Origin: Pegoplata infirma
Lineage: Eukaryota; Arthropoda; Insecta; Diptera; Anthomyiidae
Length of the DNA: 64,000 nt
NCBI GenBank assembly: GCA_963921195.1
Contig: OY992540.1
Span: forward strand, 14,143,136 to 14,207,135
Direction: 5' to 3'
Shown here: positions 23,691-59,751 of the stretch, piece after piece
Layout: the number at the start of each line of letters is the position of its first letter
Numbering within the stretch: position 1 is the first letter of the stretch
Translations under genes and position numbers: made by a program
The notes under the pieces: generated by a model
Databases searched by the model: none
Told to the model about the DNA's origin: nothing
The model's input: only the letters and a program-made list of their open reading frames with translations

Positions 23691-23699
23691 ATGTAGCAT
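23691..23699. other. Target-site duplication ATGTAGCAT, left
   Basis: ATGTAGCAT is repeated exactly at 27055-27063, directly outside the two ends of the foldback element. Its 9-bp length is typical of Drosophila foldback (FB) and Mutator-like elements. Confidence 0.88.
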
Positions 23700-23892
23700 T
23701 AGGGGTGGGATAGTGCACGAGTTTTCGATTTCGACACGCTAGAACCGCTTATTTTGTGAGGTTCGTAAAAAAAATGCATGGGCCAAAAAATGGGGCAGAT
23801 CGGATAGGATCTAGGGGTCGCTCATCGGGGTCAAAGTTGGGCGTAGAGGGGAAAAAATCCACAAAAAGGCCCACAACTCACCTGGTTTTGCT

Positions 23893-24650
23893 CCTAGAGG
23901 GGTCAAATGTGAGACCGGCCCCCATTATTTTTTCCCCCTGAAAACTTTTGCCAAACATACCTAAGCTCTATCTCCAATCCCTAAGGGGGGTCCCATACAA
24001 AGGTTCAATTTTTAAAAAATCTTACTTCTACCGCTCTAGTTGTCCTAAAAGTCACCCTAGAGGAATCAAATGTATGACCGACCCCCAATATTTTTTCAAC
24101 CCCAACATTTTCTTAGAACATACCTACCCCCTATCTTCAATCCTTAGGGTGGTCCCCATACATTTTTTTTATTTTTTCTTAAATTGACATATTAAATCAG
24201 CTCCTACCGGTCCAATGGTGCCTCCTAGAGGGGTCATTATCAAGACCAACCCCCATTAATTTTTAGCCCCCAACACTTCTTCTGAACATACCAATTCCAT
24301 ATCTCCAATTCCTAAGGGGTCTCCCACACAAAACTACATTTTTGTAAATCTTGCTCCCACCGCTCTAACTATCGCAGGGGTGACCCTAGAGAAGTTAAAT
24401 GTGTGACCGACCCCCAATATTTTTTCAGCCCCAACATTTTCCCCAAACAAACCTACCCTCTATTTTTAAGCCTTAAGGGTGTCCCCACACAATTTTTTTT
24501 ATAAAATATGCGCCTACCTCTCCCACTGTGCCTTTTAGGGACGGGAAATGCAGACTGACCCCCATTAATTTTTGCTCCCTACATTTTTTCTGAACATACC
24601 TACGCCGTATTTCCACTTTGTAGGGGTACTCCCCTGGGGAAAACTAAGTG
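23893..24650. repeat. Degenerate ~160-bp tandem units of the left foldback arm
   Basis: Marker positions CTAGAG/CTAGAGG/TTAGGG occur at about 23893, 24057, 24225, 24386 and 24535, with spacings of about 164, 168, 161 and 149. Each unit reads CC-ACCGCTC-, then the marker, then GACCGACCCCCAATATTTTT, then CCCCAACATTTT, then GAACATACCTAC-CC, then ATCTCCAATCCTTAAGGG. Adjacent units alternate between two sub-types (one with AATATT, one with ATTAAT). Confidence 0.8.
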
Positions 24651-25829
24651 TTTGAAACCAAATTCGGCAAAACGTGTGGACCAGGATTGCTAATGTTTGC
24701 GCGTTTTAAAGAGCAGTGGGAAAATATAAAAGACAAACCGTACAGTCTTGGCATATAAGATGAGGAAGTGGCAGGCAACATACCAGCTCAAGTCCAAACT
24801 GACATCAAGTTGTTTTTTTGGGCTCAAATAAAAGAAAAGCAACCAAGAGACGACTACAAGGAGTTTCTTGAAATTATTTTATTATACCTTGGCGAAAATA
24901 TTCCAAATAAGCATTTTAGCCCACCAGGACCCATCAGTCATGCTCGATGGATGGCAAAAGGCATATATTGCCTAAAAATGTTTTTGTTCCGAAAATATAT
25001 CGGTTTGGCCAAAAAAGAGTTAAATGCACTTCTTGATGTGACCGTTTTCATCATAACAATTTACGTAAAAGCTTGGTTTAGCGCTACCAAAGCAATAGAA
25101 GCTCCAAATAATGATTTGAATTTTTTGAAAGCGATTGCCAATTATGCTTCAATTGATAAGATTCTGTCGCAACGATTGGTCAAGAGATTCTGTGGACATC
25201 TCTGGTATCTCAGTGGCGAAGCTGTTGCTCTCTCACTATTTGATCTGAATATCTCTTGTGAAATAAAACGAAAAATGTCGAATGCAATTCGTATATTTGA
25301 AGAAGAGAAAGAGGAATTGGAGGAAGAGTTATCTGACGATGAGATGGACGAATCGTCTAACGAAGACAGCGAGGAAGAAGAAGACGATGATATCGGGGAA
25401 GAAGATGACTCAGAGGATAGCGGCGACAGTGGCAACAAGGATTGTAATCCTCCAGTACGTATTGTTGGATTCGAAGGTGTGAAAAGAATTAACATGGCAT
25501 AGAAACAAGTGAATCAAGAACTCATGAAAACTGATTTAAGCCACTACGTCACACCTGAGACTCCAAAATTTTTTGCACGCTTCGGAATAACAACAAATTT
25601 CATTGCTTCCGATCCAAATACTTGGGAAAATCGTCAGGACTACCAGCGAGCGCTGCAAATATTACGTAAATTACATGTTGTCAACGACGCTGCCGAAAGA
25701 GGCGTAAAATTAATAGAAGACTATAACAACGTGTTGTGCAGTAACGAGGAGGAAAAAATAGTTTTGCTTTAGGTCGTGGCCAAAAATCGGAAACAATATC
25801 CATCACACGATAAAAATAAATTAATTTGA
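24648..25829 (+). pseudogene. Internal gene of the foldback, frame kept apart from three stops
   Basis: One reading frame runs from 24648 (after a TAA at 24645) to a final TGA at 25827-25829. It is broken only by TAA at 24756, TAG at 25500 and TAG at 25770. No frameshift was found. Apparent starts at 24768 and 25509 are GTG codons, not ATG, so these pieces are segments of one former protein of about 390 residues. Landmarks in order are FARFKEQW before the first stop, DDYKEFLEIILLYLG, SHARWMAKGIYCLKMFLFR, VYVKAW-like IIYVKAWF, NDLNFLK, CGHLWYLSGEAVAL, and a Glu/Asp-rich tract (about 25300-25430). Then come VTPETPKFFARFGITT, NRQDYQRALQILRKLHVVND, AAERGVKLIEDYN and, past the third stop, VVAKNRKQYP. 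I recall similar unnamed proteins in aphid and Hydra transposon-rich genomes, unchecked. A transposase or accessory protein is the likely role. The exact superfamily is unknown. Confidence 0.8.
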
Positions 25830-26071
25830 TTTATAGTTACATATATTATTTATCATTTTTATTATTTTCAAGTTAAAAAAAATATTTTTTTACGCTTAAC
25901 AAAAGTTACTATTAAATTACAAATTAAAGACCTCGGATTTCTCGATAAAGTAAATAAAAAAATTGTGGGGTAACACCTTGAAGATAGAGGGTAGGTATGT
26001 TTGAAGAAACTGTTTTGGCTAAAAAAATATATGGGCAGGTTATTCATTTGACTTCTCTACATACATTACTA
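25830..26071. other. 3' flank of the internal gene
   Basis: AT-rich sequence with AATAAA-like AAATAAATTA just past the final stop and several A/T runs. It contains an extra partial repeat unit (GATAGAGGGTAGGTATG near 25984) before the right arm proper. Confidence 0.45.
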
Positions 26072-27054
26072 ATTTAGTTTTCCCCAGGGGAGCACCCCTA
26101 CAAAGTGGAAATACGGCGTTGGTATGTTCAGAAAAAATGTAGGCGGCAAAAATTAATGGGGGTCAGTCTGCATTTACCGTTGCTAAAAGGCAGAATAGGA
26201 GCGGTAGGCGCAGATTTTATAAAAAAAAAAAATTAAAAATAAAAAAAAATGTGTGGGGACACCCTTAAGGCTTTAAAATAGAGGGTAGGTTTGTTTGGGG
26301 AAAATGTTGGGGCTGAAAAAATATTGGGGGTCATTCACACATTTAACTTCTCTAGGGTCACCTCAGCGATAGTTAGAGCGGTGAGAGCAAGTTTTACAAA
26401 AATGTCATTTTGTGTGGGAGACCCCTTAGGAATTGGAGATATGGAATTGGTATGTTCAGAAGAAGTGTTGGGGGCTAAAAATTAATGGGGGTTGGTCTTG
26501 ATAATGACCCCTCTAGGAGGCACCATTGGACCGGTAGGAGCTGATTTAATATGACAATTTAAGAAAAAATAAAAAAAAATGTATGAGGACCACCCTAAGG
26601 ATTGAAGATAGGGGGTAGGTATGTTCTAAGAAAATGTTGGGGTGGAAAAAATATTGGGGGTCGGTCATACATTTGATTCCTCTAGGGTGACTTTTAGGAC
26701 AACTAGAGCGGTAGAAGAAAGATTTTTTAAAAATTGAACCTTTGTATGGGACCCCCCTTAGGGATTGGAGATAGGGCTTAGATATGTTTGGCGAAAGTGT
26801 TCAGGGGGAAAAAATAATGGGGGCCGGTCTCACATTTGACCCCTCTAGGAGCAAAACCAGGGGAGTTTTGGGGCTTTTTGTGGATTTTTTCCCCTCTACA
26901 CCCAACTTTGACCCCGATGAGCGACCCCTAGATCCTATCGGACCTCCCCCATTTTTTGGCTCATACACTTTTTTTACCAACCTCACAAAATGAGCGGTTC
27001 TAGCGCTTCCTAATATTGCTGCTTAAAATCTCACACGACACTATCCCACCCTTA
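26072..27054. repeat. Right arm of the large foldback
   Basis: It is the inverted counterpart of 23700-24651, running from TAGTTTTCCCCAGGGG to CACTATCCCACCCTTA, with the same ~160-bp units in reverse order. Arm-to-arm differences are scattered single bases and small indels, so the element is not freshly inserted but still well matched. Confidence 0.85.
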
Positions 27055-27063
27055 ATGTAGCAT

Positions 27064-35656: not shown

Positions 35657-37966
35657 GTCTGCATAGAGGCTGCAACTTAAGAGTTATAAGAAGATGATCA
35701 GAAATGCAAAATGTGATTCTTGGAAAAACTTCTGTGGAAACATAGAAGACGTTTCTGAGGCATACAGGCTGCGCAAGGTTCTGGCTTCTTCTCCTTGCAC
35801 CCTGGGATACCTGAAAGGTCCTAATGGGGTGTGATCTTCCTCTAGTCGAGAGTCGCTGGATCTCCCAAGCATCTGAAATTGCTTCGGTAATAATAAATAT
35901 GCCAACATTAATCTGGGCGATAAAAAGCTTCAGACCCTATAAATCCCCGGGACCTGATGGTATAATCCCGGCTAAGATGCAGCAAGTGTCGGACCATATA
36001 GCCCCGTTGCTGTATAGTCTAAACACAGCATGCATCAACTGGTCGTATATTCTTTTAAAATGGAGGGATACCAGTCGTCTTTATCCCGAAGGCTGGGAAA
36101 AGTTCCCACACAGCTCCGAAGGATTTCACACCAATTAGTCTGTCTTCTTTTTTGTTAAAGACAATGGAACGAATGATAGACTCATATTTGCGTAGAGTGA
36201 TTGACCCGAGGTTGCTTCTGACAAAGCAACATGCATACAGCAAGGGTAGATCAACGGAAACAGCTCTGCATGAGCTCGTTGGTACCATCGAGAGATCGCT
36301 TTCGGTAAAGGAGTACACTATCGTGGCCTTTCTTGATATAGAGGGGGCTTTTAATAATGTCATCCCAGACTCTATTATTTTGGCATTGTCTGATCTGGGA
36401 GTAAAGCGTGGATCGTTTTAATGGTGGAACGTATAACGTCTGACTTAGGAGCATCCGTCATATCTCGATTTGTCAATAGGGGCACACCACAAGGAGGTGT
36501 TGTTTCGCCGCTTCTTTGGAACCTGGCACTGAATTCAATGCTGCTATCTCTATAAGCACGTGGTTGTCATGTTGTCGCATATGCGGACGATGTCGCGATA
36601 GCGGTAAAGGGGAAGCATCTGCCAAAATTGAGGGACATTCTTCAGGGTTCTCTGAAAGATCTATCTAAATGGGCAAGAGACTGTGGTGTAGGAGTTAATC
36701 CAAGTAAAACAGAGCTTGTTTTGTTTACAAGGAAAAATAAGATTCCTGCTTTTGATCCTATTTATCTGGACGGCACTGAAATCACCTTCTCAGATGGAGC
36801 CAAGTATCTTGGAGTATTTCTAGATAGGAAGTTGAATTTCAGGCGTAATATTGAGGAACGGGTGAGAAAAGCAACGATTGCTTTATATTCCTGTAAAAGG
36901 GCCATTGGAAAACGATGGGGTGTTAGCCCTCAAGTCGTTCATTGGATCTATACAGCAGTGGTGCGTCCAATTTTGCTGTATGGAATCATTGTCTGGTGGC
37001 CTGCTTTAGAAACAAAAGCGAACTGTGTCTTTATCACGAAGGTACAGAGAATGGCGTCGATGTGCATCTCTGGTGCTCTTCGTACTATACCTACGGCTGC
37101 ATTAGAAATCCTCCTTCACTGATACCATTGGACATATTGGGTAGGCAGTATGCGGCTGCGTCGGCAATTCCACTTAATAGCACTCTGCAATGGAGGAGCA
37201 GCGTTTGTGGTCATAGCGCGATCTTGAAGAAGATAACAATACCACAAAATGTGGACTGTGCTCCCTCTTTGAGCGCCACTTTACCACTATGATACCATCC
37301 AGGGAGTCTTGGATGGGGGACATTCCGGGTAGAGGAGCCACCATAAATTTTTACACAGATGGATCGAGGCTGCACGATCAAGTGGGCTTTGGAGTCTATT
37401 CGGAAGAGCTTGGATTGAGCCTGGCTCGAAGATTGCCAGATCATTGAAGTATTTACCAGGCAGAGATGCTGGCAATAAAGGAAGTGGCTGACTGTTTGAG
37501 CTGCAATGTCTTGTCTACAACCGCAGTCAACATCTATACTGACAGTCAAGCCGCGGTCAAGTCCCTGGATTCAATGTTTCTGAAAACAAGATCTGCCCTT
37601 AACTGCCGCACGTCTTTAAATGAGATGGCCAAGCAGTTTAACATACTACTCATATGGGTCCCAGGGCACAGAGACATTCCAGGGAATTGCAAAGGCGATG
37701 AGCTTGCAAGACTAGGAACTACCTTACAGGTTCCAACAGAATTGGAATGTGTTGAAACTTGCAAGCCTCTAGAAACTTGCAAGCAAAACCTACGGCTTTG
37801 TTCTGCGACGGAGACTAATCAAAGATGGGCAAATGCGACGGAGACTAATCAAAGATGGGCAACACGACTGATTTGGCCAATAATTTTCTTAGCCTGGGGT
37901 TTTGCGAATAAACCCTATTCGCAAGAGCCTACTCGGAGATCGAGTATTATTCATGATTGTGTGTAA
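35657..37966 (+). pseudogene. LINE relic: reverse transcriptase and RNase H
   Basis: The reverse transcriptase can be followed in shifting frames. Landmarks are SEAYRLRKVLAS at 35754, KSPGPDGIIPAKM at 35940, STETALHELV at 36252, FLDIEGAFNNVIP at 36330, NRGTPQGGVVSPLLWN at 36475 and AYADDVAIAV at 36578. Then come SKWARDCGVGVNPSKTEL, GAKYLGVFLDRKL and AVVRPILLYGIIVWWPAL. RNase H pieces follow: FYTDGSRL near 37350, NIYTDSQAAVKSLD near 37530 and WVPGHRDIPGN near 37657. RT plus RNase H fits the I/LOA/R1 group. The endonuclease is missing, so the copy is 5'-truncated. Stops (for example at 36553) and frameshifts make it inactive. A 30-bp direct duplication sits at 37804-37863. Confidence 0.9.
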
Positions 37967-42959: not shown

Positions 42960-43955
42960 ATGTCGACAACTTCGTCCATTGAAACTCCAACTTCACCAAC
43001 GGGTCCACTACAACATCAGCCATTACAACATCATCGTCAACATACATCACATCATCAACATATTACTACGGCTATTGTAGTCAGCGCTGGCGCTGGTCCC
43101 AATACTAATCCCTATACACAAACTACAACCACCACCACTTCAACTAATAGTACTAATAACCCAAACAACACTCATACTAATAATAAACGTTCCCATTCTA
43201 CTTCTTCCTCCACGAACGGGTCTTCGAACGGGTCGTCAGCATCTTATAACCCAATGACCAACAATATGATTTCTAATGCCAATCAGCAACAGCAGCAACA
43301 ATATAATCATAACCAATCTACTCATTCTCTATTAACACCCTCTTCCTCGACTTCTTCGTCGCCCTCTGTATCGGCAACTGCTTCTTCTACGGCTGCCGCT
43401 GTAGCTGTACATCAGCCACAATACTCCACCCACAATACTAATTCATATTCAGCTCAGCAACATCAACAACGTAATAATTCTTCATCATCTACTTCTGCAT
43501 CATCCTCATCATACTCGCATTCTCATCAGCAAAATCATTCACATCATTCGCATCAATATCAACAACAACAACAACTACCACAGCAGCAACAACAACAACA
43601 AAAGCAGCAGCAACAACATTCACAACATCATCATCATCTGCAATTTGCAAGGCCATCGACGTCAATGTCAGCTCCTTGTACTGCCGCCACCTCTTCTTCA
43701 TTAAATTCACAAAATAGCTCGTGTACACCATGTAGCATTAAACGTCATACTACAGATGTTTCTGTATGCTCTTCATCGTCCTCCTCTTGCTGTTCATCGG
43801 CAAGTTCTAATTCTGTATCGGCAGCAGCTGCAGCAACTAACAGTGCTGGTGTTGGTAGTGGTGGCAATGGTGGTTTAGGTGTAGGCCAAGGAAATGCCAA
43901 TATTGTTACTCCGGCCGTGATTACGCAAAAATCGCGTACTATACCCTCGGACAAG
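42960..43955 (+). CDS. First coding exon, Gln/His/Ser/Asn-rich protein (partial)
   Basis: It encodes exactly 332 residues up to AAG at 43953-43955, followed by GTGAGT, so it ends in phase 0 and the gene continues outside the window. The ATG has A at -3 and an in-frame TAA nine bases upstream. The protein is almost all low complexity: Thr/Asn-rich at 50-80, Ser-rich at 80-100, and Gln/His-rich with runs up to seven Gln at about 180-225. A small Cys-bearing segment follows at 255-270 (CTPCSIKRHTTDVSVC), then a Ser/Cys run, an Ala run and a Gly-rich stretch near 300. The last residues, VITQKSRTIPSDK, are the only ordinary-looking sequence. This is typical of the first coding exon of a long fly regulatory protein. 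I do not recognise the gene. The 20 residues read past the donor are intron. Confidence 0.85.
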
Positions 43956-45524: not shown

Positions 45525-45960
45525 TTTTTTCTATATACGAAAAATGTCTTAGAATCTGAGACTTTTTCTATACGAAAAATGTCTCAGAATATGAGACTTT
45601 TTCTATACGAAAAATGCCTCAGAATCTAAGACTCTTTCTATACATCGCATACGAAAAATGTTTCAGAATATAAGACTTTTTTCATATGAAAGTGTCTGAG
45701 AATCTTTGACTTTTTCTATGCGAAAAATGTCTCAGAATCTTAAACTTTGTCCATTCGAAAAATGTTTTAGAATCAAAGACTTTTTCTCACCGAAAAATGT
45801 CTCAGAATCTGAGACTTTTTTCTGAACGAAAAATATCTCTGAATCTGAGACTTTTTCTATACGAAAAACATTTTAGAATCTGAGACCTTTTCTATACGAA
45901 AAATGTCACAGAATCTGTGACTTTTTGTATATAAAAAATGTTTTAGAGTCTGAAACGAAA
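45525..45960. repeat. ~35-bp minisatellite, array 1
   Basis: About eleven imperfect units of GAAAAATGTCTCAGAATCTG AGACTTTTTCTATAC. The core TCTCAGAATCTGAGA is itself near-palindromic. The same unit makes arrays at 52440-53510 and 54205-54420. Confidence 0.85.
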
Positions 45961-51373: not shown

Positions 51374-52440
51374 TGACTGCGAATTTTGTACTCTTGCCCA
51401 CAACATTAAATCATTATAATGTTTTGCGGAAGGTTTGGGTGTACTTGCCAAAGCAAAGTTTTTTTTTTTAGAAAAAATAATATTATATTACTTTGCTATT
51501 CCCTGCAAAACGAATTGAAATATCAGTCGAGGACCCACACACAAAAAATTTGTTTTTTTCATGAACGATTTTCATAGTATTTATGAACAAATTCATACAA
51601 TTTATAAACTTTTTCATAATATTTATAAACTTTTTCATAGTATTTATGAAAAATGTTAAAAATTCTTAAATTTCACATATTATGATTTATTCATAAATAC
51701 TATGAAAAAGTTTATAAATATTATGAAAAAGTTAATAAATTATATGAATTTGTTCATAAATACTATGAAAATCGTTCATGGCAAAAAAAAATTTTTGTGT
51801 GCATCCCATTAAGTTTATATATTATTGATCCATTTCTAAGACACTCTAGCTAAATATATCCGTCCATCTGACTGTGGAAAGCAAGATGCAGTCCAAACCA
51901 AAAGAGCTGTACATTTGATAAATGAGTGCAAAAATAAGTGCCAAAACATTTTGGAGAGCATAAAATATTCGGCACCGAAGAATTTAACACTCACACTTGT
52001 TTTATGTACATTTGATAAACAAATGGAACATTTTTATGAGAAAAGTTTAGACTTGTTGAAAAAGTAGTTTTGGTAAAAAAAGGGGAAAAATGATTTTTGG
52101 TGAAAAAAATGTTTAATGAAAAAAAATTTTTGATGAAAAAAACAAAATTTTTTATAAAAAAAAAAATTTTATGAAAACAATTTTTTTTTTTTTAAAAAAA
52201 AATTGAGTAAAACTATTTTAATTAAAAAAAATTTGAATGAAAAAAAATTTTGATGAAAAATTTTTTGATGAAAAAAAACATTTTTTGATGTAAAAAAATT
52301 GATGAAAAAAAGTTTATGAAAAAAAAACAAATTTTTGATAAAAAAACTAAAAAGTTTATACAAAAAAAAAATTTGATAAAAAAAAAATTTATTAAAAAAA
52401 AAAACAAATTTGATAAAAAAATATAATGAAAAAAAAAAAT
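51374..52440. repeat. Arm 1 of a ~1-kb inverted duplication
   Basis: The sequence runs inversely to 62500-63550. Paired landmarks are TTTTGTACTCTTGCCCA with TGGGCAAGAGTACAAAA, CAAAGCAAAGTTT with AAACTTTGCTTTG, and TACATTTGATAAACAAATGG with CCATTTGTTTATCAAATGTA. Both end in ATGAAAAAAAATTTTTG/CAAAAATTTTTTTTCAT simple repeats. Arm 1 carries an extra foldback at 51538-51802 and a longer central repeat segment. Confidence 0.75.
51538..51802. repeat. Foldback of CATAGTATTTATGAA units
   Basis: Left-arm landmarks GAACGATTTTCATAGTATTT and ATAAACTTTTTCATAATATT are mirrored exactly on the right (AATATTATGAAAAAGTTTAT, AAATACTATGAAAATCGTTC). The arms are about 115 bp and close on AAATTTCACATATTATG. Both outer ends read CACACAAAAAA and TTTTTTGTGTG. 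It interrupts a repeat of the 61.4-kb family. Confidence 0.85.
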
Positions 52441-53510
52441 GTATCTATAGATAAAATGTCTTAGAATCTGAGAATTTTTCAATACGAAAAATGCTTCAGA
52501 ATCTGAGAATTTTTTAATAGGAAAAATGTTTTAGAATCTTGAATTTTTTTATAGAAAAAATGTCTCAGAATCTGGGATTTTTCTATAGAAAAAATGTCTC
52601 AGAATCTAAGAATTTTTCTGTAGGAAAAATGTGTCAGAATCAGAAAATTTTTCAATAGAAAAAATATCTCAGAATCTAAGGATTCTTCTTTAGGAAAATG
52701 TCTTAGAATATGAGCTTTTTTAAAAAAAAAACATCAGAATATGATACTTTTTTAACAGGAAAAATGTGAGTCTGATACTTTTTCTTTAGAACCTGATGGT
52801 TTTTCTTTAGGAACAATGTATCAGAATCTGATACTTTTTATAGGAATAGGAATGTATTAGAATATAAGACTTTTTCTATAGGAAAAATGACTTTTTCGAT
52901 AGGAAAAATGTACAGAATCTGAAATTTGTTCTATAGGAAAAATGCCCAGAATCTAAGACTTTTCCATTTGGAAAATATCTTAGAATCTGAAAATTTTTTA
53001 TAGGCAAAATGTCTCAAAATCTAAGACTTTTTCTATAGAATAAATGTCTAAGAATCTGAGACTTTTTCTTAAGGAAATATGTCTAAGAACCTGATAATTT
53101 TTCTTTTGAAAAAATGTCTTAAAATCTGATACTTTTTCCTTAGGAAAAATGCCTCAGAACCTAAGACTTTTTCTATGAAAAAATGTTTCAGAATCTGAGA
53201 CTTTTTTAAGGAAAAATGTATCAAAATCTAAAACGTTTTCTATAAAAAATGTTTCGGAATCTGAGACTTTTTCTAACGAAAAAAAGTCGCAAAATCTGAG
53301 ACTTTTTCAATATGATAAATATCTTAGATTCTAAGACTATTTCTACTTGAAAAACGTTTCAGAATCTGAGACTTTTCCTATAGAAAAAATGTCTACGAAT
53401 CTAAAATTTTTCTATAGAAGAAATGTATCAGGATCTGAGACTTTTTTTATAGGAAAAATTTTTCAGAATCTGAGGCTTGTTCTATAGGAAAAATGCACAG
53501 AAAATAATAT
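52440..53510. repeat. ~35-bp minisatellite, array 2
   Basis: About 28-30 imperfect units of GGAAAAATGTCTCAGAATCT GAGACTTTTTCTATA with variable A and T runs. The unit is the same as arrays 1 and 3. The array is too diverged between neighbours to be recently homogenised. Confidence 0.85.
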
Positions 53511-54204
53511 CGTATATTTTATTTTAATTAAAATTTTAATTGTTTTTGAATTTAATATTAATTAAACTTTTAATTAATATAATTAATTGTTTAATTAACT
53601 TTTTAACTTTATTTTAATTAATATTTTAATTGTTTTCAAATTTAATATTAATTAAGTATTTAATTTATATAATTAAATGTTTAATTAAATTTCTAGCTTT
53701 ACTTATTTTTTTTGTTTTGTTTTCCGTGTGTGTGCGAGTGTGTGTTTTTCTCTTGCATTGTATTACATACAAAAAAAAAAAAACACATAAGTATAAAAAC
53801 TTTGTTGAAAGTTTTTTTTATTTTTCACATAGGTTTTTGAATTCTCATTTTGTTTATAGTTTTATGTGTATGTATATGAAAGGTTTATAATCAACTTTAT
53901 AAAATCATCTCACTGACTATGTCTTTACGCCATAAATAAATTTGGTAAAGTTTGAAGAAATATAATATTTTAAATTAATTTTTTTAATTTATACAATTAA
54001 AATTTTAATTATTTTTTTTTAAATTTTAATTTAATTTTTTAATTTATAGTATTAAGTTTTTAATTAAATAAATATCCATTTATTTTTAATTAACGACATA
54101 CAAATATTTTTAATTTATTTGCGCATTTTAGTGATTGGTCCGGATTTAATTAATTTTTTAATTAAATCTACGAATTTTTTAATTAAATATTTTTTTTATT
54201 TTTT
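53511..54204. repeat. TTAATTAAA-rich low-complexity DNA
   Basis: Repeated TTTAATTAATAT/AATTAAATTTAA words occur over two stretches (53520-53690, 53960-54190), separated by a GTGTGTGTGCGAGTGTGTG stretch near 53726. No gene is visible. Confidence 0.6.
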
Positions 54205-54420: not shown

Positions 54421-55678
54421 TTAAGTATGTACATTAGGGCGTTTCATCAAAAACTTTTTTTTGGATTTTTGCAACTCTTGAAGCGGGATATGAATTCTTA
54501 TGGCCTAAAAGATTTTTGAGATTTTTTTCAGATTTTTGGAAGGTCGTGATCAACTCGCTCAAATCGATTTTATCCAAAAAATGAGGTTATGAAACATCAT
54601 TTTATTTTATTTTTTTCCCCTGGTGCCTTTTTTACAAAACTGGATACATTACTTCTAAATGTTGCTAGCCTCCTAAAAAAAATTTTCGCGGTCAAAATTA
54701 TAAGTTCAAGGGTCACTAAGATGACCTTAAAAGTAAAAATTCAAAATTTCCCGTGTTTTAACCTCAATAATTCGAGAAATAAGCTATGTATGAACGTCAT
54801 GTTGAATCCGTTAGATAGGTCTTTAAAACACCTTTCATTTAAAACCAATCTGACTATTGTCACTTTTGTAGAAATGTTAAAAAAAATAAAAAAACTGGGA
54901 AAAACTCATTTTCTCCCCCATTTTATCGAAAATTGAACTGGTGCATTAAGTAGTTTTTTTTTTGTAAAGTTAAAATAATACCTTTAAAAGACTTTTTATA
55001 GATTGTAGTTAGTGTTTCCAAGCCGGTTAACCTAAAAACCGGTTTTTTGTCAAAAAAACCGGTTTGACAAAAACCCGGTTTTCGGGTTTGGAAACACTAA
55101 TTGCAATCAAAAAACTTCTTTTAAGTTTATTATTTCAACTTTACAAAAAAACTACTAATGGATTCCCTTCGATTTTCTGTAAAATGGGGGAAAAAATGAG
55201 TTTATCTTAGTTTTTTAATATTTCTACTAAAGTGACAAATGTAATTTTGGTTTTAAATTAAAGGTATTAGAAAGACCTATCTAACGGATTCATCATTACG
55301 TTCATATATTGCATATTTCTCAAATTATTAAGGCTGGAACACGGGAAATTCTGAAGTTTTACTTTAAAGGTCATCTTAGTGACCCTTGAACTTATTATTT
55401 TGACCGCGAATATTTTTTTTTAGGAGGCTAGCAACATTTAGAAGTATTATATCCGGTTTTGTTAAAAAAAGGCACCAGAGAACAAAAAAAAAAAAAAATT
55501 TTGTTTCATAACCTCATTTTTTTGATAAAATCGATTTGAGCGAGTTGATCCCGACATTCCAAAAATCTGAAAAAAATCTCAAAAATCTTTTAGGTCATAA
55601 GAATTCATATTCCGCTTCAAGAGTTGCAAAAATCCAAAAAAAAGTTTTTGATGAAACGCCCTAATGTACATATCTTAA
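54421..55678. mobile_element. Foldback element, 1.26 kb, arms ~600 bp
   Basis: TTAAGTATGTACATTAGGGC GTTTCATC on the left is mirrored by GATGAAACGCCC, TAATGTACATATCTTAA on the right. Pairing continues all the way to a small centre at about 55025-55065 made of ACCGGTTTT units. The 115-codon frame at 54589-54936 is inside the left arm and shows no domain. No clear target duplication was found, because the outermost bases also pair. Confidence 0.88.
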
Positions 55679-57021: not shown

Positions 57022-59751
57022 ATATGGGGCATTCCATGTCAAATCGGACACTTTGAAATTTTTTTTTTTTAATTTTCCCAATTTGTTTAAAGTTTTTAGT
57101 ACCCTTCGAAAACTCCTTCGTGGTAAATTTTCAGATTTTTTTGATGACCCGTTAAAAAGATATGGAATTTTTAAAAATTTGTAGTTTGTTCCTTTACTCA
57201 TAACTTCTTCAATAATGGTCCAAATTTCAATTTTTTTTCAAAATTTTTGTTTTTTTACGTACTTTAAAAAAAAAAATCCCAAAAAATTCTTAAAAGCGCT
57301 CTAGTATGCGATTTTTAAGTTTTAAAATTAAAATTTAATTTTTGAAAATTTTTGCACTCTTCGATTTTTTTGAAATTTTTTTGTGTGAAACATCTCTGGA
57401 TTCTACAAATTTTTTGCCCAGGAGGATCGTGGGATAACGATTATTACTATTTTTTTTAATTTTTTGAAAAATTTTATTGTAATTTTTCAATCTTAAAATC
57501 ATTTCTACTGCTCCAATGGTGCGTTATAGAGGGGTCATTTATAAGACTGACCCCCCATTAATTTTTACATCTTAACATTTCTATGGAACAAACTAATACT
57601 CTATATCCAATTTCTAAGGGGCTCCCACACAAAACGACATTTTTTAAAATTTGCTCCAACCGCTCTAACTGCCCTAATAGTGCTCTTAGGGCAATCAAAT
57701 GTATAACCGACCCACAATATTTTTTTAGTCCAAACATTTTCTCTGAGCACACCTACCCTCTATCTTTAACTGTTAAGGCGGTCCCCATAATTTTATTTTT
57801 TATTTTTTGTAAATTTGTTTTATTTAATCTGCTTCTACCGGTCCAATGGTGCGTTCGAGAGGGGTCATTAGTGAGACCGATCCCCATTTATTTTTACCCT
57901 ACAACATTTTTTAAAACGTACCTACGCTCCATCTCCACTCCATAAGTAGGCTACCATTCAAAATTACATTTTTATAAAATTTGCTCCAACTGTTATTTAT
58001 ATGGGAGCCCACTTAGGGAGTGGAGATAGGGCTGTGTATGTTTTAGAAAAATGTTGCAGGGTAAAAATAAATGGGGGTCGGTCTCACTAATGACCCCTCT
58101 CGGACGCACCATTAAACCGGTGGAAGCTGATTAAATAAAACAAAAATACAAAAAATAAAAAAAATTGTATGGGGACCACCTTAATTAAAAATTAAGGAGG
58201 GTTGGTGTGTTCAGAAAAAATGTTTGGACTAAAAAAATATTGTGGGTCGGTCATACATTTTGTTGCTCTAAGGGCACTATTAGGGCAGTTAGAGCGGTTG
58301 AAGCAAATTTTAAAAAATGTCGTTTTGTGTAGGATCCCCCTTAGAAATTGGAGATAGGGTATTAGTTTGTTCCAAAGAAATGTTAAGACGTAAATATTAA
58401 TGGGGGTCGGTCTTATAAATGACCCCTCTATGACGCACCATTGGAGTAGTAGAAATGATTTAAAGATTGGAAAATTACAAAAAAAAAATTTCAAAAAATT
58501 TTAAAAAATAGTAATAATCGTTATCCCACGATCCTCCTGGGCAAAAAAGTTGCTCTAACCGCTCTAACTGCCCTAATAGTGGCCTTAGAACAACAAAATG
58601 TATGACCGATTCACAATATTTTTTTAGTCCAAACATTTTCTCTGAACACACCTACCCTCTATCTTTAACTGTTAAGGCGGTCCCCATACAATTTTTTTTA
58701 TTTTTTGTAAATTTGTTTTATTTAATACGTTTCTACCGGTCCAATGGTGCGTCCGAGAGGGGTCATTAGTGGGACCGACCCCCATTTATTTTTACCCTAC
58801 AACATTTTTTTAAAACATACCTACGCCCTATCTCCACTCCCCATGTAGGCTTCCATTCAAAATTACATTTTTTTTTAATTTGCTCCAACTGTTATTTGTA
58901 TGGGAGCCTACTTAGGGAGTGGAGACCGACCCACATTTATTTTTACCCTACAAATTTTTTTTAAAACCTACGCACTATCTCTACTTCCTAAGTAGGCTCC
59001 CATACAAATAACAGTTGGAGCAAATTTTATGTAATTTTGAATGGAAGCCTACTTAGGGAGTGGAGATGTTTTACAAAAATGTTGTAGGGTAAAAATAAAT
59101 GGGGGTCGGTCCCACTAATGATCCTTCTCGGACGCACCATTGGACCGGTAGAAGCTAATTAAATAAAACAAATTTACAAAAAATAATAAAATAAAAAAAA
59201 TAAATTAAAATTAAAATGTTTGGACTAAAAAAATTTTGTGGGTCGGTCATACATTTTGATGCTCTAAGGGCACTTTTAGGGCAGTTAGAGCGGTTGGAGC
59301 AAATTTTAACAAATGTCGTTATCCCACAATCCTCCTGGGCAAAAATTTGTAGAATCGATAGATGTTTTACAGAAAAAAATTAAAAAAAAAATCGAAGAGT
59401 ACAAACATTTTCAAAAATAAAATTTAAATTTTAAAACTTAAAAATCGCATACTAGAGCGCTTTTAAGAATTTTTGGTGATTTTTTTTTTTAAAAGTACGT
59501 AAAAAAATAAAATTTTGAAGAAAAAAAAATTGAAATTTGGACCATTATTGAAGAAGTTATGAGTAAAAGAAGTTTGAGTAAAGGAACAAACTACCAATTT
59601 TTAAAAATTCGATATCTTTTGAACGGGTCATCAAAAAAAATCTGAAAATTTATCACGAAGGAGTTTTCGAAGGGTACTAAAAACTGTAAACAAATTGGGA
59701 AAATCTAAAAAAAAATTCAAAGTGTCCGTTTTGACATGGAATACCCCATAT
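57022..59751. mobile_element. Large foldback element without a gene, 2.73 kb
   Basis: The ends ATATGGGGCATTCCATGTCA and TGACATGGAATACCCCATAT are near-perfect inverses. Pairing continues through CAAATCGGACACTTTGAA, CGAAAACTCCTTCGTG and CTCATAACTTCTTCAATAAT, about 330 bp of terminal arm. Inside lie many ~160-bp units of the type found in 23700-27054 (GACCGACCCCCATTTATTTT, TACCTACGCCCTATCTCCAC, AGGGGTCATTAGTGAGACCG) in both orientations. Mirror breaks are at about 58005, 58560 and 59000, so the centre is multiply rearranged. There is no internal gene. Confidence 0.88.

Follow-up and report, generated by a model that had tools for sequence, protein, structure and literature searches.

A foldback element of Pegoplata infirma with a truncated, putatively hAT-like transposase gene, a fuller relative in the same genome and a core in two orientations

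Several known systems come close in build to the element of this study, a foldback transposon at positions 23700-27054 of a 64,000-nucleotide stretch from the fly Pegoplata infirma (G000:C5:14143136-14207135; the whole stretch is called the window below). Tetris/DAIBAM of the Drosophila virilis group has an outer end domain followed by tandem repeats of about 220 bp in inverted arms, with 8-10-bp duplications and nonautonomous copies; no transposase is known for it, and the Mutator label comes from the duplication length and the earlier view that most foldbacks are Mutator (PMC4079207). Rehavkus has 9-bp duplications (PMC6446971), and the inverted ends of Rehavkus-1_TC contain 164-bp repeats (PMC10218199). 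The reported Rehavkus transposase has a PHD finger and is grouped with the Mutator-like elements (MULEs). Galileo, too, has extended inverted ends, in some copies with tandem repeats, and its arms have taken up pieces of genes; its duplications are 7-8 bp (PMC4168063), and its enzyme is of the P type with a THAP domain (PMC3688188). In Medicago, the internal region of a PIF/Harbinger element is reported to be inverted between inverted ends (PMC2213677).

Compared by description, the window element is like Tetris/DAIBAM in its end domain, tandem-repeat arms, nonautonomous copies and a duplication length within 8-10 bp, whereas its units are about 165 bp long rather than about 220 bp. The resemblance to Rehavkus-1_TC (repeats of about 164 bp in inverted ends) is one of form only, and the 9-bp duplication of Rehavkus contrasts with 8 bp in 20 of 28 copies of the window family. 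Galileo shares long inverted ends, arm repeats and short duplications with the window element, but for the THAP domain of this P-superfamily enzyme no Pfam match was obtained in 37 relatives of the window protein, many of which lack the N-terminus. FB/NOF, to which the first-pass annotation had likened the element, resembles the window copy in foldback form, repeat-built arms and, in this one copy, the 9-bp duplication. However, the arm repeats of FB are 31 bp, against units of about 165 bp here, the duplication of the window family is not fixed at 9 bp, and the enzyme has a predicted Hermes-like fold, so that kinship is not supported. Membership in FB/NOF, Rehavkus or Galileo was weighed and set aside.

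We propose that the window element is very probably a nonautonomous foldback moved in trans by a predicted hAT-like transposase of its own lineage, with internal deletion, amplification and inversion of the core. What would be new is a hAT-like foldback with a fuller source in the same genome, plus an inverting core. A literature search of titles and abstract beginnings, without Repbase Reports and most subscription journals, found no paper on a hAT foldback, and a literature search for three protein motifs found none either.

The element, its sister copies and a fuller relative

The foldback form was found as the first-pass annotation had given it, with long inverted arms of repeats and a target duplication at both edges. 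The exact tips are TAGGGGTGGGATAGTG at 23700 and TAAGGGTGGGATAGTG on the reverse strand at 27054; with up to three mismatches, shuffles give an expected 0.27 tip matches per window, and two matches were reached in 4 of 100 shuffles. By simple arithmetic, the probability that two fixed edges match exactly over 9 bp by chance is near 4^-9, and a further ATGTAGCAT lies at 43730, away from the element edges. The arms (23700-24647 and 26074-27054) are identical at 895 of 948 aligned bases, but at just 72 of 88 in the first 100 alignment columns; thus, "near-perfect", as the inverted repeats had been called, suits the middle of the arms better than their outermost part. The degenerate units of about 160 bp were also recovered, as two alternating types of about 165 bp. 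The left arm has five of them and the right arm six, each 117-169 bp long with the cuts used here, with 92-98% identity between left and right partners (five pairs) and 50-78% between different units of the element.

The 1.38-Gb assembly holding the window was searched with the terminal sequence and the gene. For the left end (a query of 201 bases) there were 1330 first-look candidates, and the 40 that were scored are all 98-100% identical to it; a related protein, P0001, gave 3292, of which 84 were scored (the first-look numbers are not copy counts). Together, the two scored lists mark 120 separate places (40 + 84, four common to both). All of the 84 P0001 matches start at residue 118-124, and hence none covers the N-terminal part. 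The first 20 of the 39 end matches outside the window were fetched, as were ten of the 84 gene matches (listed 1 and 3-11; match 2, at a contig end, was skipped). Every end-selected copy contains gene sequence and is complete at its edges, with both tips and a perfect duplication, the gene match lying at most 21 bases from the arm/gene junction in 19 of the 20; L023 is without the first 275 bases. In seven of the ten gene-selected copies both tips lie within the fetched stretch, with a perfect duplication in all seven, while only one tip was found there in L031, L032 and L035. All 27 sisters with both ends therefore carry a perfect duplication (8 bp in 20, 9 bp in seven) and the truncated gene, always within the arms, as expected for a single multi-copy element with real target duplications. 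With the window copy (n = 28), the duplication is 8 bp in 20 copies (L033 being ambiguous, within a repeat) and 9 bp in eight; the 9-bp duplication of the first-pass annotation is thus perfect in the window copy but not typical of its sisters. The duplication has T at position 2 in 21/21 and A next to last in 20/21 copies of the first set, and each in 6/7 of the other seven copies.

Core sequences of 16 copies without large inserts, window included, diverge from the majority by 0.66-2.34% and form a star-like tree, as a burst would give. Ongoing conversion between the arms of one copy is not evident, since the arms are 96.8% identical within copies and 96.6% between copies; in any one copy, between 0 and 5 variants are common to its two arms. 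The main exception is L027, with five variants in both arms and two unshared, a possible recent inter-arm conversion.

The frame between the arms runs from 24648 to the natural stop at 25827-25829, with in-frame stops at 24756, 25500 and 25770, and reads as about the last 393 residues of an insect protein family. This family gave 755 matches; among the best 120 listed, the top one is 70% identical and the named sources are ants, an aphid and a psyllid. By tblastn, all six relatives compared begin to match at 24648, and by blastp five of six do so (P0005 one residue later); the left arm matches the right arm through 24647, which places the arm/gene junction at 24647/24648. What remains of the gene begins just past the position of the CxxH motif, so that both catalytic aspartates and CxxH are lacking whereas RW and E are kept. 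A long frame opens directly after the stop at 24756 in 9/21 copies, and the amplified form probably already had that stop. As 349 or more open codons are kept in only 6/21 copies, we make no claim that a whole-protein frame is under selection.

The missing part was sought with the N-terminal 120 residues of P0001 (323 candidates, 150 scored, 43 matches). The best match, on C2, sits inside an element of the window family (C2:156031053-156043830) whose gene is interrupted by inserts. On its left side are the left-type tip, the end domain (95.8% identical) and five units (90.6%). Beyond a putative N-terminal exon, a further exon contains both aspartates and CRHH, its last 257 bases being 95.3% identical to the window gene, and the remainder of the gene follows in two blocks (97.9% and 96.1%) parted by later inserts, one of which carries a frame like that of a long interspersed nuclear element (LINE). 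The 3' stretch (98%), the sixth unit (93%) and the right units (90%) come next, and the right-type end is 95.3% identical over its first 148 bases, followed by a short homology gap before the units. ATATGCAC flanks the element on both sides as an 8-bp duplication. Since arms and missing gene parts occur together at C2, the simplest origin of the amplified form would be an internal deletion that brought the left arm up against the midpart of the gene. On this comparison of sequences, the window copy is a deletion derivative and not the gene-bearing master that had been suggested, and its centre would be the element's own transposase, cut down and fused to the left arm, rather than a different cargo protein. 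The term "internal gene relic" stands insofar as a broken gene lies between the arms, but the relic would be that of a transposase. Both sides share an A-run close to the junction, a possible microhomology.

The parent's catalytic exon (L041 2476-3090) is 93% identical to P0001 residues 2-120, against about 71% for the remaining gene of the window family; the relative may be a mosaic, or constraint may be uneven along the gene. Three of the 42 remaining N-terminal matches were fetched (L040, L039, and L042 with L043). In L040, whose tip differs at one position, an end domain and four units accompany a rearranged, partly reversed gene with pieces that include the second aspartate region and CxxH; L039 keeps part of an end domain and a fragment of one unit, and its gene is deleted. 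In L042 with L043, a 477-codon open frame, 42% identical to the relative P0034 over 449 columns, lies between inverted ends that are about 750 bp long and 89% identical. Their tips are TAGAGGTGTCCTTA and TAAGGGTGTCCTTA, and an 8-bp duplication, ATGACTAT, stands on both sides; no internal repeats were found in the arms. Judged from its sequence, L042 is a second family with the same kind of transposase and similar tips. Seven more N-terminal matches (G000) lie in open frames of 554-779 codons, which suggests several other families with uninterrupted genes in the genome. No relatives were confirmed among 26 pattern matches in viral_contigs or among 39 in genome_contigs (prokaryotes), and the unit pattern was not found in viral_contigs.

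Table 1. Features of the foldback element and its edges (positions in the window)
Feature	Position	Strand	Remark
Foldback element, putative deletion derivative, 3355 bp, "away" isomer	23700..27054	.	
Target site duplication, left copy, ATGTAGCAT	23691..23699	.	
Target site duplication, right copy, ATGTAGCAT	27055..27063	.	
Left-type end domain, tip TAGGGGTGGGATAGTGCACG	23700..23891	+	
Left arm, five units, types A-B-A-B-A	23892..24647	+	unit comparison
3' part of putative transposase gene (P0001 residues 121-514), fused directly to left arm	24648..25829	+	
3' untranslated stretch	25830..25942	+	also in C2 parent (98 columns, 98% identical)
Sixth, innermost unit (type B), gene's 3' side only	25943..26059	-	unit comparison
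Right arm, five units matching left arm	26060..26850	-	unit comparison
Right-type end domain, tip TAAGGGTGGGATAGTGTCGT	26851..27054	-	
Arm positions 171-767, putative crossover zone	23870..24466	+	no consistent difference between arms
Partner of crossover zone	about 26274-26872		offset estimated from arm alignment

Two orientations of the core

When the left-type end is placed left, the gene points toward it in 15 of the 20 end-selected copies and away from it in five; the gene-selected copies give 5/7 and 2/7, so that 20 of the 28 copies in all are "toward" and eight, including the window copy, are "away". The C2 parent is also "away". The sixth unit, present in 18/20 end-selected sisters, is always on the gene's 3' side. 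Arm columns were kept when the majority reached at least 70% in each of four groups (42 arms, 21 copies). Thirty differing columns, at arm positions 3-170, follow the end type, and five, at 768-846, follow the core side; column 793 fits neither, and past the inner end of the arm there are 14 more unclassified columns and four of the "end" kind. Positions 171-767 hold no consistent arm difference. The two marker blocks are the pattern of exchange in a stretch that is alike in both arms, and they mark the breakpoint zone of the inversion; the ends stay put. Because the arm/gene junction is the same in both orientations, one deletion came before the inversions. Furthermore, 25222 A occurs in 4/8 "away" and 0/20 "toward" copies, whereas L036 ("away") has the derived core variants 24791, 25229, 25294 and 25316 of otherwise "toward" copies. 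Together with the "away" parent, L036 points to at least two switches, or to one switch and an exchange between copies; with just 55 informative core sites, some of them conflicting (e.g., 25740), the number of switches is not firm.

We infer that the exchange took place within one element, by recombination across its inverted arms. Exchange between copies, through crossing over or end conversion, is a less probable but serious alternative and predicts the identical breakpoint zone. It is favored by a right-end variant common to the window copy, L030 and L036, by end and core markers that are not fully linked, and by the four "toward"-group core variants of L036, which the window copy and L030 lack. 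Nothing decisive opposes it, but inversion within an element requires only one copy. The Medicago case is a comparison of two elements, while in the window family both forms recur. Since its two ends can be told apart, core inversion can be counted copy by copy, and an expected property of inverted arms becomes a measurable rate. Galileo and similar foldback-like elements have caused chromosome inversions in flies.

Placement of the transposase and mechanism

The motif order of hAT transposases is D, D, CxxH, RW, E. The same order is conserved across 37 aligned relatives of the window protein. A fold model of one relative was compared by Foldseek with the folds of the VIA list; Hermes (hAT) was the best match over the whole model, which has a predicted RNase H-like core with a long, Hermes-like helical insertion. 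The TARGG tips are also hAT-like, and so in part are the duplications, most of which are 8 bp long with T as second and A as last but one base, whereas the lack of a Pfam hAT match, some 9-bp duplications and the long repeat-built arms are not. 

Several points weigh against the hAT-like explanation. The fold assignment is based on a relative and not on the window copy, which has only RW and E, and the TM-scores to Hermes are 0.32-0.51 with large rmsd. Pfam hAT models matched neither the 37 relatives nor the L042 frame, and with the limit relaxed to E = 10 they matched none of nine proteins, although a profile miss (hAT dimerisation domain) does not show that the domain is absent. The 9-bp duplications in 8/28 copies are odd for hAT. 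Inserts break up the C2 parent, in which the N-terminal exon has 35% similarity to that of P0034 with a stop codon within the matched stretch, and some core markers disagree with the end markers. Sequence searches of Pfam and PDB yielded nothing beyond weak matches, and these were to unrelated families.

Under the proposed hAT-like mechanism, a fuller parent would have lost by internal deletion its first exon and that stretch of the main exon in which both aspartates and CxxH lie, as the C2 locus suggests, so that the left arm came to be fused to the remaining gene. The product was then amplified by cut-and-paste transposition, as the perfect 8-9-bp duplications and the star-like core tree show, and would be mobilised in trans by a predicted hAT-like DDE transposase. 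By analogy, the arm units are probably multiple transposase-binding sites.

An improbable alternative is a MULE-type element (FB/NOF, Phantom, Rehavkus) moved by a Mutator-like transposase. The 9-bp duplications of Rehavkus and the 164-bp repeats of Rehavkus-1_TC speak for it, as does the presence among the structural matches of ISCth4, of the IS256 family, which is kin of Mutator. However, the duplication is 8 bp in most copies, in the C2 parent and in L042, and over its full length the model matches Hermes better. In Pfam, no PHD finger was matched in the 37 relatives, many of them without the N-terminus, and no MULE transposase domain in those relatives, the nine proteins checked further or L042. 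No solved MULE is among the structural matches listed, so that the fold test is one-sided.

Inverted repeats are difficult to assemble, but assembly errors are a very unlikely source of the apparent inversions, as the element is just 3.3 kb, majority end and core markers form two clean blocks in 21 copies, and 25222 A is specific to one orientation group. Least likely of all, and nearly refuted, is the capture of an unrelated transposon's gene by a foldback whose arms are moved by another enzyme. In its favor, the arms of the window copy, taken by itself, enclose no more than a piece of a gene. Against it, the missing parts lie within both arms at C2, the diverged L040 pairs tip, end domain and units with gene pieces, and L042, too, is bounded by long inverted ends with tips of a similar kind.

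If the hAT-like explanation holds, one genome has the whole chain from a foldback with a fuller gene through the deletion that made a nonautonomous form to its many offspring. Mostly 8-bp and sometimes 9-bp duplications in one family make duplication length alone a weak basis for a Mutator label. The Mutator label of Tetris/DAIBAM rests on duplication length and analogy. More tentatively, a widespread insect hAT-like clade, unnamed in Pfam, might normally be foldback, with arms that repeatedly invert the core, and might be the source of the Tetris/DAIBAM enzyme. If true, the arms would be a recombination switch by which a family of perhaps thousands of copies maintains two isomers, and the clade may supply the missing enzyme for orphan foldbacks such as these.

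Null tests and other features of the window

The idea that each arm unit carries the tip motif TARGGGTGG was rejected: with at most one mismatch it is in only three of six independent units, and shuffles reached this level in 131/1000 for hits and 95/1000 for units. The motif was absent from three units of a second window element (57022-59751). Three arm stretches showed no unusual single-strand folding (z -0.21, 1.77 and -0.31), and Rfam gave no match at gathering scores.

The second element, at 57022-59751, also has long inverted repeats, and A/B units like those of the foldback make up its inner part, where they point in several directions; its outer 420 bp or so and its tips (ATATGGGGCATTCCATG) are unrelated to the window foldback. 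No target duplication was found there by eye. The outer part occurs without units in L015 833-1329. At 54435-55663, a near-palindromic element of about 1.2 kb is self-complementary at 85%. Its tips are TAGGGCGTTTC, ATGTACAT flanks it on either side, and by eye it resembles a further foldback, again with a duplication of 8 bp. Frames at 36059-37966 resemble LINE reverse transcriptase by eye, and the start peptide of a minus-strand frame at 37211-37570 is nearly the same as that of a frame among the C2 parent inserts. The minus strand at 621-2639 has the frame of a C2H2 zinc-finger protein, whose best match is from Musca domestica (66%), which makes a calyptrate fly the likely host. Related tandem-like repeat blocks lie at 45526-45956 and 52435-53704.
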